Shown piece by piece: positions 27,014 through 37,755 of a stretch of 39,528 nucleotides of DNA. The stretch covers positions 1 through 39,528 of the IMG/VR virus record IMGVR_UViG_3300003323_000938; one strand, given 5' to 3'. The notes beneath the pieces are model-generated. The model saw only the letters and a list, made by a program, of their open reading frames with translations. It was not told where the DNA came from and did no database searches. The position numbers were made by a program, and so were the translations under genes. This stretch comes from a virus. How positions within the stretch are numbered: position 1 is the stretch's first letter; each line of letters opens with the position of its first letter.

Positions 27014-27283
27014 CTACATCTGGTCATCGCCGGCGGCGGCCTCGGCGTTACCTTCGGGCACCACCCGCCACTGGCTGGCCTTGATCTGCTCCAGCTTGGT
27101 CTGGCTGTAGCGCACCAGCGGGTAGCCGCCGTCGGTGCGGTCGAAGATGAAGACCGTGCCGTCGGGCAGCTTGCCCTTCTTGCGCCGGTAGTGCAGGGCG
27201 CGTTCCCCGATGCCGAGGAACGCCGCCGCCTGGCTACGCGTCAGCATGTCCGGATCGTCCGGGCTGTCGGGGAACACGTCCAT
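27014..27283 (-). CDS. Helix-turn-helix DNA-binding protein
   Basis: An 89-residue protein. LTRSQAAAFLGIGERALHYRR (about residues 14-34) is a MerR/excisionase-type helix-turn-helix. The following VFIFDRTDGGYPLVRYSQTKLEQIK is the wing and last helix. It could bind phage promoters or act as a recombination directionality factor. ATG 27283 has a TAGTCT box seven bases upstream, so the transcript may be leaderless. A weak match to the shared operator (TTGCA-N6-AGCAC, 27285-27300) sits over this start. Confidence 0.75.
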   Translation of the reverse strand: MDVFPDSPDDPDMLTRSQAAAFLGIGERALHYRRKKGKLPDGTVFIFDRTDGGYPLVRYSQTKLEQIKASQWRVVPEGNAEAAAGDDQM

Positions 27284-27310: not shown

Positions 27311-30300
27311 TCACCCGCTGTGCCAGCTTCGGGCCGGCGGGCCGCCCGCCTCGGCGGTGATGGCGATGTCGCCGAGCTGGCGGGTCATTACCCCCAGCAG
27401 CGTGTCCAGGCCGAGCTGGGCCTGATCCTGCGGCACCATCGCCACGATCTCGTCATGCACCGGCATGAGCACACCACCGCCGAAACTGGCGTCGTCCCAC
27501 TCCAGCAGCGCATCGGCGAGCAGTTCCCGCGCGGTGCCCTGGATCAGGTAGTTCGGGGCCTTGTGCGGCAGCTTGGGGTCGAGGTGGATGACCCGGCCCG
27601 AGTAGGTGCGCCACTGCCGCAGGCCGGTGCGCACGCCCTGCTTGATCTCCTCGGACCACGCGGCCAGCCGCGGGGTGAGCGCGCGCAGCGCGTCGACGGC
27701 GGCGGCCACGATCTCCACCGAGACGCCGGACTGCTTGGCCAGGGTCTCGAACCCGCCGCCGTAGATGTAGCCGAACACGATGCGCTTGGCCAGGGTGCGG
27801 TTCTCGTCGGCCAGCGCCTCGCCGAACACCTGGGCGGCGATCATGCGGTGGATGTCCAGGCCCTGCTCCAGCACCGAGCGCAGCACGGGGTCCCCGGACA
27901 GCGCCGCGGCCACGCGCAGCTCCACACCCTCGAAGTCGGCCGAGACGATGGCGAACCCGGCGTCAGCCAGCACGCACTCGCGCACGCCGCCCTTCTTGCT
28001 GATCTGCTGCATGTTGGGCCGAACGCAGCTCATGCGGCCGGTGTCCGCGCCGAGGGTGTAGACGGTGGGCCGGACCCGGCCGTCGCCGCGCTCCACGGCG
28101 ATCAGCCACGGCCGCAGGATCAGCTTCAGCAGGGTGTCGTGGTGCCGCCAGTCCAGCACCAGCCGTGCGGCGGCCTGTGCGGGCCCTGAGCGCTCCGCAA
28201 GGGTGTGCAGCACGTCCTTGGCCGTCGACGGAGCGCCGCCCGGCGTGTGGGGCAGCGAGACGCCCATGCGGGTGAACGCCTCGCCGAGCTGCTTGGGGCT
28301 GCCGGGGTTGTCGATGCCGAGGGCGGAGCGGACCTGCTGGCGCAGCTGCTGCTCGGCGGCGTCGTGGTCGTCGTGCTGGCTGCGCACCAGCGCGGCGTCC
28401 AGCGGGAAGCCGAAGGTGGCGGCGGGGGCGACGATGCGCTGCACGCGCTTCTCGCGCTCGTGCACGGCCGGATCGGGGGCCGGCGTGGTCAGCGCCAGCA
28501 GCGCGCCGTCCAGCACGTCGGAGCAGGCGTAGCTGATCATCGTGGAGCTGCGCTTGTCCACCTGGAGCCAGCCGGACTTCTCCGCCGGCGTGGTGGGCTC
28601 GGTCTCGGTGAGCCAGCCCGAGGCCGTGAACAGGGCCTTGCGGCGCTCCTCGGCGGCCGGCGAGGTGGCCTGCGCGCCGAGTCGGACGGCGCTGGCCGCC
28701 TTGAGCGCCGGGTTGCCGCCGCCGCCGCTGGGGTCGGCCAGCTTCTCCCCGATCACCGTGTCGTCCATCTTGGCCCACAGCTCGGCGTGGGTGGCGATGC
28801 CGGCGTGGTGCAGCGCGGGAATGTCGGCGTGGGCGTTGTGGGCGTGCAGCACCTGGGCGCGGCCCAGCGCCGCGGTGGCGACGGCACAGCACGGTGTGCA
28901 GTCGGCGTCCAGGTCCACGGCCAGCACCCGGGTGCCGAGCTGGACGGTCCGCAGCGCGTAGTCGGGGTGCCCGATCGGATAGCCCGAGGTCTCCACGTCC
29001 ACGGTGAGGTGGCCGTCGCTCTTGGCCATCGCGTCGGTGAGCAGGGGGCCGACGTGCACGTGGTCGACGTGGCGGGGAGTCGGGGTGGTGCGCCGGACCA
29101 CGGCGGGCAGCTCCACGGTCTCGCCGGCGAGCTCGGCCACCCTGGCCGCCTTCTCCGCTGCCTTGCGCGCCTGCACCGGGGTGGGCTCGCCGGGCTGTCG
29201 CCGAGTCCGCTTGGGCTTCGCCGGGGGCTCGGGCTCGGCCGACTTCTCGGTGGCTTCCCGCTCCTGACGGCGCAGCGAAGCGTAGTTCGCACTTAGGGGA
29301 GCCTTACTATGCTGCCGATGTACGGACGTATGTACCGGCGCCAAGCCGGATGACGGGTCCGCCGAATCACCCGTCATGGCGAGTTCGCCCTGGTCAGATA
29401 CCGAGTTGGCGGAATCGACTGACGGATCGCTGACTGGCTCCGGTATTCCCGAGTTATATGTACTTACTTGATTAAGATGATGATGAAAAGTTACTGGCGA
29501 ACCATCCATCACATCCGTCATCTCATGATCAACTTGGGTGCTGACCTGCGAAGACGGGATGACTGATCCAGACTCGGCATCAGTCACGGATGTGTCATCA
29601 CCCGTCATCGTCTTCCCAGCGGCCGGAACCGGTTCCGGAGCCGGTCCGGTGAACCAGTTCCCACCCGGGTTCTGCTTGAGCTCCAGGTGTCGGTACCGGG
29701 TCTCCGCGGTTCGGGTGAGCCCCACACCGGCCTTGGTCAGCCGTCGGCCGAAGTCCACCGATGAGAGCACCGCGCGCCGGCCGAACGCCGGGTGGTTGCG
29801 GAACCAGACGGCGAAGTCGTTGTGCAGCAGCTGCGCCGGGGTGCCGGGCTCGGCGGCCACCGTGCGCTCGTCCATCCACAGTCGGACCGGGTCCTGCTCG
29901 CGGACCATGGTCTCCACCAGCTCGGCCACCGCGGCCGGCGTGGCCGAGGGGGCCAGCGTGGCGGAGTCGGCCAACCACGCCGAAGCCCGGCGCATCATCG
30001 CGGCCAGCACGCCGGGCGCTTCCCGGGCCCAGGCTCCGCTGATGGTGTCCCCGGCGACTTCGCCCAGCGCCGCTCTAGCACGACTGACCTGATCGGGGTC
30101 GCCGTCGCAGGCGATCACCCGGGCCCGGTCGCGCAACGCGTCGTCGGTCAGCTCAGGCGCGTCGTTCTGCATCAGCACCAGCGTGTGTGTGGAGTCCCAG
30201 GTCACCGGATCCCGACGCATCTGGTTGCCGGTCATCCGGCCGCCGCCGGTGAGCAGCTTGACCCGCTCCACCTTGTCCCGGTGCGTCGGCGCGGGCTCGT

Positions 30301-32092
30301 CGATATAGGCCAGCCGCAATCCCTTGAGGCTGTAGACCACCGAGCCGTGGGCTTCCGGGGCCACGATCAGCTTCTGGTCGGCCGGGCCGCCGTAGGTGCC
30401 CAGCAGGTTGCACAACAGCGCCACCACCTGCGTCTTGCCGCGCCCGGTGTCGCCGTAGAGCACGGGCATGATCCGCGGGCTGTGCCCGGTCAGGCCGACG
30501 GCCAGCACGCGCAAGGCCCACTCTCGAATCTCGGCATCCGGCCACACCGCGGCCACGAAGGCGTCCCACAGCGGCGTGGGCCCCTCCACCGGCTCGAACC
30601 GGGCGGAGTGGGTGTGCGGGGTCAGCGGGTCCACACCGTCGGCCAGCGCGCACGTGCGCAGGTCCCACGGCCGGCCCCCCGCCCACAGAATCGCCGGGTC
30701 GGCGTCCAGCTCGGACAGCCGCACGTGGTTGGGATGGCTGCCGGCCGCGGTCAGTTCCCGGATCTTCTTGGCCACTGGGGCCGACCCGGCCGAGGAGTGG
30801 AAGCGCTGGTGCCGCCAGCCCTGCCAGTGCTCCGCGGTGCGCTCGGACGGGTCCTTGGGCACCGGCCGCGCGCCGTAGGGCATCCGCACGGCCACCTCGG
30901 TCACCGCCCAGCCCGAGGCGTCGCGGGTGATGGTCTGCCAGCGTTCCGGGCCGCGGACCAGCCAGCTGCCGGATTCGGAGTCCATCCGCAGGTTCGGGTA
31001 GAGCTCGGCCAGCACCGACTGGGCAAGGCCGTGGTCGGTGTTGTCCTCGGCCGGGTCGAACACGTCAGCCAGCCGGCCGTGCGAGCGGACGTGCTCCAGG
31101 GAAGCCAGGGCGCGCGGCGGCAGCGCCGGCTGGCCGGCCGACCCCGCGGCGTACCCGCTGTCGTCCCAGACCTTGAACGGCCGGCGCTGCCCGTCGGCCA
31201 GGCCGTCGCGGATCCACCGCGCGTCGTCGGCGTCTGGTTCGTTGCCCCAGGCCCGGCCGGCGGCGTCTTCCAGCCCGCTGTACGCGGTGGCGGCGTCCAG
31301 CACGCCGGCGGCCACGTAGCCGCCCAGGGTCAGCGCGGCGCGCATGAGCACGTGCCGGTAGCCGGACCCGGGCGTGGCCGGGGCCGAGGCGGCGGCCAGC
31401 TCCCGGGCGATGGCGGCGCGGGCCGCGGTGAGGCTCTGCGGCGGCCGGGCCATGAACTGCGACCAGCCGTCGGCGTGCTGCTCGCCGGGGACGGCCGGCG
31501 GCATCGGCCGTTCCTGCCGCTCGGCCAGCGCGCTCACCCAGGTCTCGGGCAGGAACGGCAGATCCGCCACCAGCGGTAGCTCGCCGGGCGCGGCCGAGGT
31601 GAAGTCGGGGCGGTACCAGGCGTAGACGCCGCCCTCGGGATGCACCGACGGCGCGGCCACGATGTAGCGGTGGTGATGCTGGAGCACGTCGATGCCGAGG
31701 CCGGCCTTGCCGCGCAGCGTCACATCGGCCTGGGGCAGCCGGTAGAGCCACACCCGCGCCGGCGAGTCCGCGCCGCGGGAGGTGGAGCTCCAGGTGGCGG
31801 GCAGCGGACCCAGCTCGGCCATCAGCTCGGCCAACGTGTCCGCGCCAGGTTTGCCGTCGTAGTGGTCGACGTCGATGCCGACCACCCCGGCGGGCAGCCG
31901 CAGGCCGATGTAGGCCGGGCCGGCCTGCGCCCAGGCGAGCACCTGGGCGATCTCGGGCGTCGCGCCGCCGGCCCCGGTGAAGCCTTCCGGCGGCGGGAAC
32001 TTCGCGCCGAGCGGGAGCGGCAGGGTGCCGGTCCACCCTGCCTGGATGTACATGCCGGCCTGCGCGAAGGGACTGGTGCTGCTACCGTGCAC
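27311..32092 (-). CDS. Primase-helicase-exonuclease-DNA polymerase fusion
   Basis: One frame of 1593 residues. Residues 1-200: primase-polymerase domain (GIDVDHYDG, Asp74/Asp76; SVHPEGG near 149). About 520-700: D5/SF3-type helicase (Walker A GDTGRGKT 547-554; YIDE 596-599; sensor MQNDAPE near 641). Residues 827-1020: disordered linker rich in Ser, Asp and Lys. About 1025-1195: 3'-5' exonuclease (DVETSG, Asp1032/Glu1034; Asn1086 to Asp1090; Tyr1188 to Asp1192). About 1340-1560: family A polymerase (Asp1386 with ELR; motif B Arg1432, Lys1436, Phe1440, Tyr1444; HDE 1546-1548). All key residues are present, so every domain could be active. GTG 32092 has AAAGG nine bases upstream. The gene probably encodes most of the phage replication fork. 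Confidence 0.92.
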   Translation of the reverse strand: MHGSSTSPFAQAGMYIQAGWTGTLPLPLGAKFPPPEGFTGAGGATPEIAQVLAWAQAGPAYIGLRLPAGVVGIDVDHYDGKPGADTLAELMAELGPLPATWSSTSRGADSPARVWLYRLPQADVTLRGKAGLGIDVLQHHHRYIVAAPSVHPEGGVYAWYRPDFTSAAPGELPLVADLPFLPETWVSALAERQERPMPPAVPGEQHADGWSQFMARPPQSLTAARAAIARELAAASAPATPGSGYRHVLMRAALTLGGYVAAGVLDAATAYSGLEDAAGRAWGNEPDADDARWIRDGLADGQRRPFKVWDDSGYAAGSAGQPALPPRALASLEHVRSHGRLADVFDPAEDNTDHGLAQSVLAELYPNLRMDSESGSWLVRGPERWQTITRDASGWAVTEVAVRMPYGARPVPKDPSERTAEHWQGWRHQRFHSSAGSAPVAKKIRELTAAGSHPNHVRLSELDADPAILWAGGRPWDLRTCALADGVDPLTPHTHSARFEPVEGPTPLWDAFVAAVWPDAEIREWALRVLAVGLTGHSPRIMPVLYGDTGRGKTQVVALLCNLLGTYGGPADQKLIVAPEAHGSVVYSLKGLRLAYIDEPAPTHRDKVERVKLLTGGGRMTGNQMRRDPVTWDSTHTLVLMQNDAPELTDDALRDRARVIACDGDPDQVSRARAALGEVAGDTISGAWAREAPGVLAAMMRRASAWLADSATLAPSATPAAVAELVETMVREQDPVRLWMDERTVAAEPGTPAQLLHNDFAVWFRNHPAFGRRAVLSSVDFGRRLTKAGVGLTRTAETRYRHLELKQNPGGNWFTGPAPEPVPAAGKTMTGDDTSVTDAESGSVIPSSQVSTQVDHEMTDVMDGSPVTFHHHLNQVSTYNSGIPEPVSDPSVDSANSVSDQGELAMTGDSADPSSGLAPVHTSVHRQHSKAPLSANYASLRRQEREATEKSAEPEPPAKPKRTRRQPGEPTPVQARKAAEKAARVAELAGETVELPAVVRRTTPTPRHVDHVHVGPLLTDAMAKSDGHLTVDVETSGYPIGHPDYALRTVQLGTRVLAVDLDADCTPCCAVATAALGRAQVLHAHNAHADIPALHHAGIATHAELWAKMDDTVIGEKLADPSGGGGNPALKAASAVRLGAQATSPAAEERRKALFTASGWLTETEPTTPAEKSGWLQVDKRSSTMISYACSDVLDGALLALTTPAPDPAVHEREKRVQRIVAPAATFGFPLDAALVRSQHDDHDAAEQQLRQQVRSALGIDNPGSPKQLGEAFTRMGVSLPHTPGGAPSTAKDVLHTLAERSGPAQAAARLVLDWRHHDTLLKLILRPWLIAVERGDGRVRPTVYTLGADTGRMSCVRPNMQQISKKGGVRECVLADAGFAIVSADFEGVELRVAAALSGDPVLRSVLEQGLDIHRMIAAQVFGEALADENRTLAKRIVFGYIYGGGFETLAKQSGVSVEIVAAAVDALRALTPRLAAWSEEIKQGVRTGLRQWRTYSGRVIHLDPKLPHKAPNYLIQGTARELLADALLEWDDASFGGGVLMPVHDEIVAMVPQDQAQLGLDTLLGVMTRQLGDIAITAEAGGPPARSWHSG
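29316..29342 (-). repeat. 27-bp dispersed repeat, copy 6
   Basis: GGCGCC-G-GTACA, then T and ACGTCCGTACAT on the minus strand, in the linker of the polymerase fusion (codons 918-926). Confidence 0.85.
29349..29610 (-). other. AT-rich linker segment with iteron-like repeats (possible origin)
   Basis: ATCACCCGTCAT occurs at 29366-29377 and 29597-29608, with a close variant at 29508-29521 and an inverted ATGACGGGT at 29350-29358. The segment around 29449-29500 is far richer in A and T than its surroundings. It lies inside the linker of the replication protein gene, as the lambda origin lies inside gene O. Origin function is inference. Confidence 0.4.
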
Positions 32093-32181
32093 AGTGCTTG
32101 ACCTTTCGTAGTGCGGTGGTGTTGCTGCTCGGCCACCGGGTGCGGCGGCGAGGTCGGGCGAACACTCCTCCAGGGTGTAGG

Positions 32182-32214
32182 GACCCCCACCGGCGACGCG
32201 GTGGGGGTCTTTTC
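32182..32214 (+). terminator. Intrinsic terminator, plus strand
   Basis: GACCCCCACC (32182-32191) pairs perfectly with 32200-32209 over an 8-base loop, followed by TTTTCT. Only the plus direction has the T-tract. No plus-strand gene lies between here and 7504, so its transcript is not explained. Confidence 0.75.
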
Positions 32215-32251
32215 TGTTGGCAGGACTCGGACTCTACGCCTCAAACGTCCA

Positions 32252-32273
32252 GTTTCCACGACCAAGTGGAAAC
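32252..32273. promoter_or_regulatory. Perfect palindrome GTTTCCAC-N6-GTGGAAAC
   Basis: Eight-base arms with a six-base spacer, four bases before the -35 box of the plus promoter P3. A likely operator in the divergent region between the polymerase fusion gene and the recombination operon. Confidence 0.6.
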
Positions 32274-32276
32274 AAG

Positions 32277-32305
32277 TTGCAAACCCCTGCACACCAGCGT
32301 AGCGT
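32277..32305 (+). promoter_or_regulatory. Promoter P3, leaderless, with operator variant
   Basis: -35 TTGCAA (32277-32282), 17-base spacer, -10 TAGCGT (32300-32305), and the ATG at 32313 is eight bases after it, with no ribosome site. TTGCA-N6-TGCAC (32277-32292) matches nine of ten bases of the P1/P2 operator. Confidence 0.6.
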
Positions 32306-32312
32306 GGCGGCC

Positions 32313-37396: not shown

Positions 37397-37755
37397 ACGC
37401 CCAGGGTCATGGACGTAGTGGCAGCGTCGCCCCCGTGAGAGGGGGAGGGGTGGGTTCGAGTCCCACTGATCCGCGACAGCCCGCCACGCTCGCTCCGCTC
37501 CAGAACCGTCTGGGATGGGAGCCATAGCAACGGTCGGCAGTCAAGGGAAAGGGCACAGCGGGAGTACGGCGGGCGTCCGGATTCGAGTCGCCGACGGCAC
37601 GACAACCGCTGTGCCACCAGGCAGGGCGGCTGACCTATCGGGGCTCCGGAGCATGTCCGACGTGAGAGCGGATCCGGCGTCAATCGTCTCTCCGGTCCGG
37701 CCGCCCTGCCCAATCACCAGGCACAAGCGCAGTCACCAGCAGAGATGAGAGCACC
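37397..37755 (+). ncRNA. Structured non-coding segment before SSB
   Basis: Besides the tRNA-like part it holds two long perfect stems: 37552-37561 with 37606-37615 (10 bp, inner stem 37567-37571 with 37589-37593) and 37620-37630 with 37700-37710 (11 bp, with inner stems). No ORF with a ribosome site was seen. It follows P4 and precedes the SSB-like gene. A structured RNA or regulatory leader is likely. Confidence 0.5.
37403..37474 (+). tRNA. tRNA-like cloverleaf, possible Leu (GAG)
   Basis: A 72-base fold: acceptor 37403-37409 with 37467-37473 (one mismatch at the end, one G-U), T8 and G9, D arm GACG/CGTC, anticodon arm with loop GTGAGAG (T33, anticodon GAG, A37) and one mismatch at its base, and a perfect T arm GTGGG-TTCGAGT-CCCAC. 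The variable loop is only three bases, unlike normal leucine tRNAs, and CCA is not coded. It may be a tRNA, a decayed tRNA, or an att site that copies a tRNA 3' half. Confidence 0.35.

Follow-up and report, generated by a model that had tools for sequence, protein, structure and literature searches.

A conserved single-frame phage replicase whose linker DNA is a candidate replication origin

The window analysed here, a viral stretch of 39,528 nucleotides that makes up IMG/VR record IMGVR_UViG_3300003323_000938, encodes recognisable terminase, portal, major head and tape measure proteins together with a DNA helicase, an exonuclease and a WhiB-like protein. Because of these genes we take it to be a tailed phage, probably of an actinobacterium; a megablast search with positions 15000-39528 found no match among phage records. 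The minus strand carries a replicase gene (Table 1), with GAAAGG located ~11 nt 5′ of its start codon and a TGA stop at 27311-27313. The interval 32093-32310, from which the replicase gene and a plus-strand gene apparently diverge, contains a GC-rich hairpin (GACCCCCACC...GGTGGGGGTC) just 5′ of the replicase. A small minus-strand ORF with a weak excisionase match lies directly 3′ of the replicase (27017-27283), and ARAGORN reports a tRNA-like gene with an unassigned two-base anticodon at 37403-37474.

Table 1. Features of the replicase gene and its linker DNA, in window positions.
Feature	Residues	Position	Strand	Basis or remark
Fused replicase gene	1593 aa	27311..32092	-	GTG start at 32092, single open frame
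Prim-Pol domain	15-173	31574..32050	-	Pfam; motif I D74/D76, motif III D135
D5_N + SF3 helicase core	359-651	30139..31018	-	Pfam, PHROGs, alignment
Helicase C-terminal region	~721-808	29669..29932	-	Alignment; at Pox_D5 position of other D5/SF3 primases
Low-GC translated linker, candidate replication origin	~809-961	29210..29668	-	GC, repeat tests
Iteron ATGACGGGTG		29599..29608	-	2 mismatches to GTGACGGATG
Iteron GTCACGGATG		29583..29592	+	1 mismatch, opposite orientation
Iteron GTGACTGATG		29578..29587	-	1 mismatch
Iteron ATGACGGATG		29512..29521	-	1 mismatch
Iteron GTGATGGATG		29503..29512	-	1 mismatch
AT-rich core between arms, candidate unwinding element		29446..29500	.	Site layout, base composition
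Iteron CTGACGGATC		29419..29428	+	2 mismatches, opposite orientation, right arm
Iteron ATGACGGGTG, second copy		29368..29377	-	2 mismatches, right arm
Iteron ATGACGGGTC		29350..29359	+	Opposite orientation, right arm
3′-5′ exonuclease domain	~1001-1209	28465..29092	-	Alignment
Family A DNA polymerase domain	~1211-1593	27314..28462	-	Pfam + alignment

The initial annotation placed a Prim-Pol, a D5/SF3 helicase, an exonuclease and a PolA polymerase in one frame of 1593 residues, and Pfam, PHROGs and a PolA alignment confirm this. Pfam matches follow in the order Prim-Pol, D5_N, DUF5906/SF3 and DNA_pol_A, with nothing else matched, and PHROGs assigns residues 7-803 to DNA primase (phrog_1156, E 6e-93) and 1022-1560 to DNA polymerase (E 3e-88). 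A search for the same domain order elsewhere, proposed in the same annotation, identified it fused in three single-frame relatives from separate metagenomes (L001, 1555 aa; L002, 1573 aa; L003, 1556 aa) that are 56-75% identical, and with DUF3854 in a second family described below; no relative was matched in the genome-contig scans. The window linker contains no stop codon in the replicase frame, compared to 4-11 in each of the other five frames, and the linkers of the fused relatives likewise have none in the coding frame and 1-11 in the others. As the linker is stop-free in this frame only and the relatives are open end to end, the openness exceeds chance. The joining of primase-like, helicase, exonuclease and polymerase parts in one chain is genuine and conserved.

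The initial annotation also reported every catalytic residue as present, which stands for the exonuclease, polymerase and Walker motifs and fails for one position of the Prim-Pol. Alignment with D29 and other phage PolA sequences shows intact exonuclease residues (Exo I, D1032/E1034; Exo II, D1090; Exo III, Y1188/D1192), and Pol A (D1386), Pol B (R1432/K1436/F1440/Y1444) and Pol C (H1546-D1547-E1548) are all present in the alignment. With a DNA_pol_A match (PF00476) at 1238-1571 (E 3.6e-51; 174.7 bits vs a cut-off of 34.3), the C-terminal half has the Pfam match and the full set of Exo I-III and Pol A, B and C residues of a family A polymerase with proofreading. In the helicase core, Walker A is GDTGRGKT at 547-554 and Walker B is D598/E599. 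The profile matches in this core lie under their curated cut-offs, slightly so for D5_N at 359-518 (E 4e-4; 21.2 bits vs 22.4) and further for DUF5906/SF3 at 545-651 (E 2e-3; 19.2 vs 27.6 bits) and TIGR01613 (84.3 vs 108.7 bits); among the relatives, L002 exceeds the cut-off for D5_N (25.0 bits) and L003 that for DUF5906 (36.3 bits). A Pox_D5 match is present in L042, L043 and L068 and absent from the window protein, and we assign the helicase C-terminal region a putative winged-helix DNA-binding role.

The Prim-Pol match (PF09250, E 5e-21) passes its curated cut-off with 76.2 bits vs 22.8. At the motif II His position, the window protein, L001 and L002 carry Arg, whereas L003 and a Prim-Pol of a Streptomyces plasmid have His. 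The window protein is a Prim-Pol member by domain that departs from the full AEP signature (DxD, His, D), and priming by this degenerate domain is less certain than first stated because of the His to Arg change. A sequence search found no solved structure for the Prim-Pol region. AlphaFold2 models of the two halves, built from 4-sequence alignments, had mean pLDDT values of 42 and 39, too low for fold comparison.

Between the helicase and exonuclease regions, the two 400-bp intervals of lowest GC in the record, starting at 29201 and 29301, lie in the linker (GC 0.57 vs ~0.70). The linker carries iterons with the consensus GTGACGGATG, whose copies in opposite orientations flank an AT-rich core. 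This array of origin type was not seen in the initial annotation. The window iterons are diverged, with no exact copy of the consensus; exact 7-mer and 8-mer repeat scans do not place the linker among the top repeat regions, and its sites were found only through a motif built from L001 and L002. In those relatives, TGACGG occurs 11 and 8 times in the linker, respectively, in both orientations; the left arm consists mainly of direct copies, the right arm of inverted ones, and an AT-rich core separates the arms. The peptide encoded depends on the orientation of the copy (VTD or DPSP), and thus the repeats do not reflect a repeated peptide.

To compare these counts with an expectation under the same protein sequence, we used synonymous-codon shuffles. 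The shuffles do not attain the TGACGG counts of L001 (11 vs a mean of 4.4), L002 (8 vs 2.1) or the window linker (6 vs 1.6, P 0.0015). Scanned with the motif derived from the two relatives L001 and L002, the window linker yields 9 sites where 1.0 is expected (P 1e-6), and 5/7 window sites coincide with L001 sites at a single constant offset, a result reached in 0/5000 randomisations. The strongest repeat clusters of records L005, L006 and L007 also fall within linkers. At the protein level the linker is 46-50% identical between close relatives and 19-26% identical to L003.

A 19-mer representing the iteron tandem (GTGACGGATGTGACGGAKG) matches 28 viral contigs, 24 of which carry arrays in both orientations. 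In 19 contigs besides L001 and L002, the array begins ≤34 bp beyond the end of a D5/SF3-type primase gene, counted from the stop codon, and invariably lies 3′ of it. These contigs, many of which have a 797-aa gene in common, represent a small number of lineages and so are not 19 independent cases; their genomes range from 43 to 68% GC. One lineage comprises Lactobacillus phages; in CL2 these iterons follow the DNA primase gene, with sites at 0, 12, 75, 152, 161, 216 and 228. Counted from the second direct copy, and leaving out one inverted copy at 32, the L001 sites are at 0, 12, 78, 87, 161, 173, 230 and 242. Replication origins are annotated 3′ of the primase gene in the records of Lactobacillus phage A2 and Streptococcus phage Sfi21. 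The A2 origin shares the two-arm layout but not the iteron, and the Sfi21 iterons likewise differ from those of the window. Covariation between the iteron and the helicase C-terminal region was sought and not demonstrated; the proteins beside the same iterons are 18-27% identical to the window protein there. The window linker has the A2/Sfi21-type origin layout (two-arm iterons, an AT-rich core, a position directly 3′ of the D5/SF3 coding region), inside the gene and not after a stop codon, and its DNA is best read as an A2/CL2-type origin that the window phage would translate.

The second fused family has the order DUF3854-D5_N-SF3-exonuclease-PolA, DUF3854 replacing Prim-Pol. Its members are a protein of the complete Streptomyces linear plasmid pS1D4-14.2 (P0002, WP_181360814.1), annotated merely as a P4-family primase, and 14 viral contigs (L029-L042), which include a record of the plasmid itself and are all open over the match. 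In a tree with long branches the polymerase of this family clusters with those encoded by the split genes of Xkcd426 and BabyGotBac and apart from the window group, and the family is likely a separate fusion event. In its linkers an AT-rich core is flanked by inverted repeats of the GGTAC type. Repeat scores are higher than in synonymous shuffles at P ≤0.05 in 11 of the 14 contigs, and the two arms vary in concert from contig to contig. These repeats appear to back the origin reading, as weaker support because the contigs are related.

L003 (7524-12194) is a mosaic, combining a different Prim-Pol/helicase half with a polymerase half nearly like that of L001: the two are ~88% identical over the exonuclease and polymerase, 35-46% over the Prim-Pol and helicase, and 26% over the linker. 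Its linker has another iteron, TGGCGG, in 10 copies vs 2.2 in shuffles. As the repeat motifs of L003 and P0002 were picked after seeing the data, their P values are descriptive. The initiator and origin of L003 seem to have been exchanged together, with a breakpoint near the 3′ end of the linker.

Several further arrangements were observed among these records. The second-family replicase of L036 (354-5762) is ~357 aa longer than the others, with LAGLIDADG and homing-endonuclease matches inside the SF3 domain, and the insertion is probably an intein. Plasmid pS1D4-14.2 (L009, NZ_CP041606.1; L033) also appears in IMG/VR as a virus, and a fused replicase of its type is carried by several viral contigs of 85-96 kb; the plasmid and these related contigs are likely a group of linear phage-plasmids. 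In L008 (7847-11047), a 1066-aa frame with uracil-DNA glycosylase, 3′-5′ exonuclease and PolA matches is another PolA fusion.

The initiators of P4/A2-type replicons are believed to act on iterons directly 3′ of their own genes, binding these and opening the AT-rich core that they flank. We consider it quite probable that the window gene encodes a fused replicase and that its linker segment is an origin of this kind that is also translated. The N-terminal half (Prim-Pol, D5_N, SF3 and C-terminal region) would correspond to a P4/A2-type initiator, primase and helicase, whose gene, having no stop, would read in frame through the origin into the exonuclease-PolA gene; the origin would thereby be translated as a disordered linker. 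As a hexamer, the N-terminal half would bind the iterons inside its own gene, melt the AT-rich core and load as an SF3 helicase, and the tethered Exo-Pol half would reach the new fork and extend primers. The fusion probably arose by merging neighbouring genes, since the two halves adjoin in the same order in many actinophages.

It is possible, though unlikely, that the chain is instead a polyprotein, cut in the linker or supplemented by polymerase from an internal start, so that the halves act separately. The linker is long and, by sequence, unstructured, and the polymerase of the apicomplexan enzyme Prex is released by proteolysis (PMC7689252, PMC8113025). A separate polymerase product could also be made in the window phage because in-frame GTG codons near residues 985-998 follow GGAG; however, the four relatives have no start codon in common that is preceded by a good ribosome site, and no protease gene was recognised among the window proteins scanned. 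As actinophages make the halves as two genes, a fusion kept over divergence suggests that the tethering is used, and the protein may work uncut.

We regard as improbable a second alternative, in which the iterons form a regulatory or partition site (an operator or a centromere-like element). Plasmid iteron clusters also act as operators or partition sites, and binding would look identical in sequence, but two arms and an AT-rich core directly after a D5/SF3 gene occupy the position of the annotated A2 and Sfi21 origins, and no partition gene was recognised among the window proteins scanned. Quite improbable, too, is that only the fusion matters and the linker is an ordinary disordered tether, its repeats resulting from a low-complexity peptide and relaxed base composition. 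The poor conservation of the linker protein is expected of a tether and the window iterons are imperfect; against this, the motif encodes different peptides in its two orientations, its counts exceed synonymous-codon shuffles, the window site positions match L001 at one offset, and non-coding DNA just after the D5/SF3 genes of unrelated phages has this motif in this layout. An assembly or sequencing artefact joining neighbouring genes, suggested by the adjacency of the same two halves in many actinophages, has a negligible chance, and with it the linker frameshift raised in the initial annotation is rejected, as one frame is kept in four independent contigs (the window and its three close relatives) and in the 14 second-family contigs, including a complete plasmid.

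The reading of the linker as a translated origin extends to a broader proposal, to which we give even chances: a one-gene replicon, in which one CDS would encode initiator, helicase, proofreader and polymerase and hold its own origin in the linker codons, having arisen at least twice by origin read-through, with initiator and origin moving as a unit. A translated origin of this kind must satisfy protein coding and initiator binding together, and opening of the frame through an intervening origin would be a route for fusing adjacent replication genes. The candidate origin of <350 bp and one gene would form a minimal phage replicon open to direct testing, and in a naturally tethered initiator-helicase-polymerase the coupling of unwinding and synthesis could be studied in a single chain.

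The arrangement was initially described as not standard. It is real and conserved, but it has precedents in Prex, in the Pyrovirus 3173 polyprotein and in the neighbouring genes of actinophages, and the architecture is a variant on already known fusions. Our partial coverage of the literature yielded no published description of a Prim-Pol/SF3/Exo/PolA fusion or of an origin at such a seam.

In function, Prex and the Pyrovirus 3173 polyprotein come nearest to the window protein, but their domains differ from its own. Prex, the apicomplexan plastid replication-repair enzyme, joins primase, helicase, 3′-5′ exonuclease and PolA (PMC8113025). Like the window protein it has all four parts in one polypeptide with the polymerase half C-terminal; it differs in being processed, whereas the window protein is a phage Prim-Pol and D5/SF3 fusion with an origin-like array in its linker. 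Prex is a nuclear-encoded organelle enzyme, and its primase and helicase belong to another class than those of the window. Of the Prex signature, a TOPRIM-type primase and a DnaB/Twinkle-type helicase fused to PolA, only the PolA part had a Pfam match in the window protein. The PolA polyprotein of Pyrovirus 3173 (1606 aa) fuses a helicase/primase-like region to exonuclease-PolA (PMC7689252) and is likewise phage-encoded, fused in some relatives and split in others. Its N-terminal half is of the DUF927/COG5519 type, in contrast to PF09250 and D5_N/SF3 in the window protein, which has no Pfam match to DUF927 at E up to 1. Virophages and polinton-like viruses encode AEP-S3H and PolA-S3H fusions without exonuclease, for which helicase-exonuclease compensation has been proposed (PMC11071308). 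These also join a primase-polymerase or a family A polymerase to an SF3 helicase, but the window protein has intact exonuclease motifs in addition to its helicase. With both activities predicted from its motifs, it contradicts the proposal that viral polymerase-helicase fusions lack exonuclease (PMC11071308).

Also comparable in layout are the pS1D4-14.2 protein and its relatives in L029-L042, which share with the window D5_N, SF3, exonuclease and PolA in one frame and inverted repeats in the linker, and differ in having DUF3854 for Prim-Pol and GGTAC-type iterons. The phiC31-type actinophages (phiSASD1 gp11/gp12, Samy, BubbaBear, Xkcd426) also encode a D5/SF3 primase-helicase followed by PolA, but as two genes, with TOPRIM and not Prim-Pol matches in the three tested; split actinophage pairs showed no excess of repeats where the primase and polymerase genes meet. 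Phages A2, CL2 and Sfi21 share with the window two-arm repeats and an AT-rich core immediately 3′ of a primase gene, and CL2 shares the iteron and near-identical spacing; their origins are non-coding, whereas the window array is translated as a linker. In phage lambda, the iterons of ori-lambda lie inside the initiator gene O (PMC3985674), a location shared by the candidate origin iterons of the window. Lambda O is an initiator only, whereas the candidate window origin sits at the helicase-polymerase seam. A conserved origin-type array serving as a translated linker in two fused families is more surprising, and more unusual, than the fusion.
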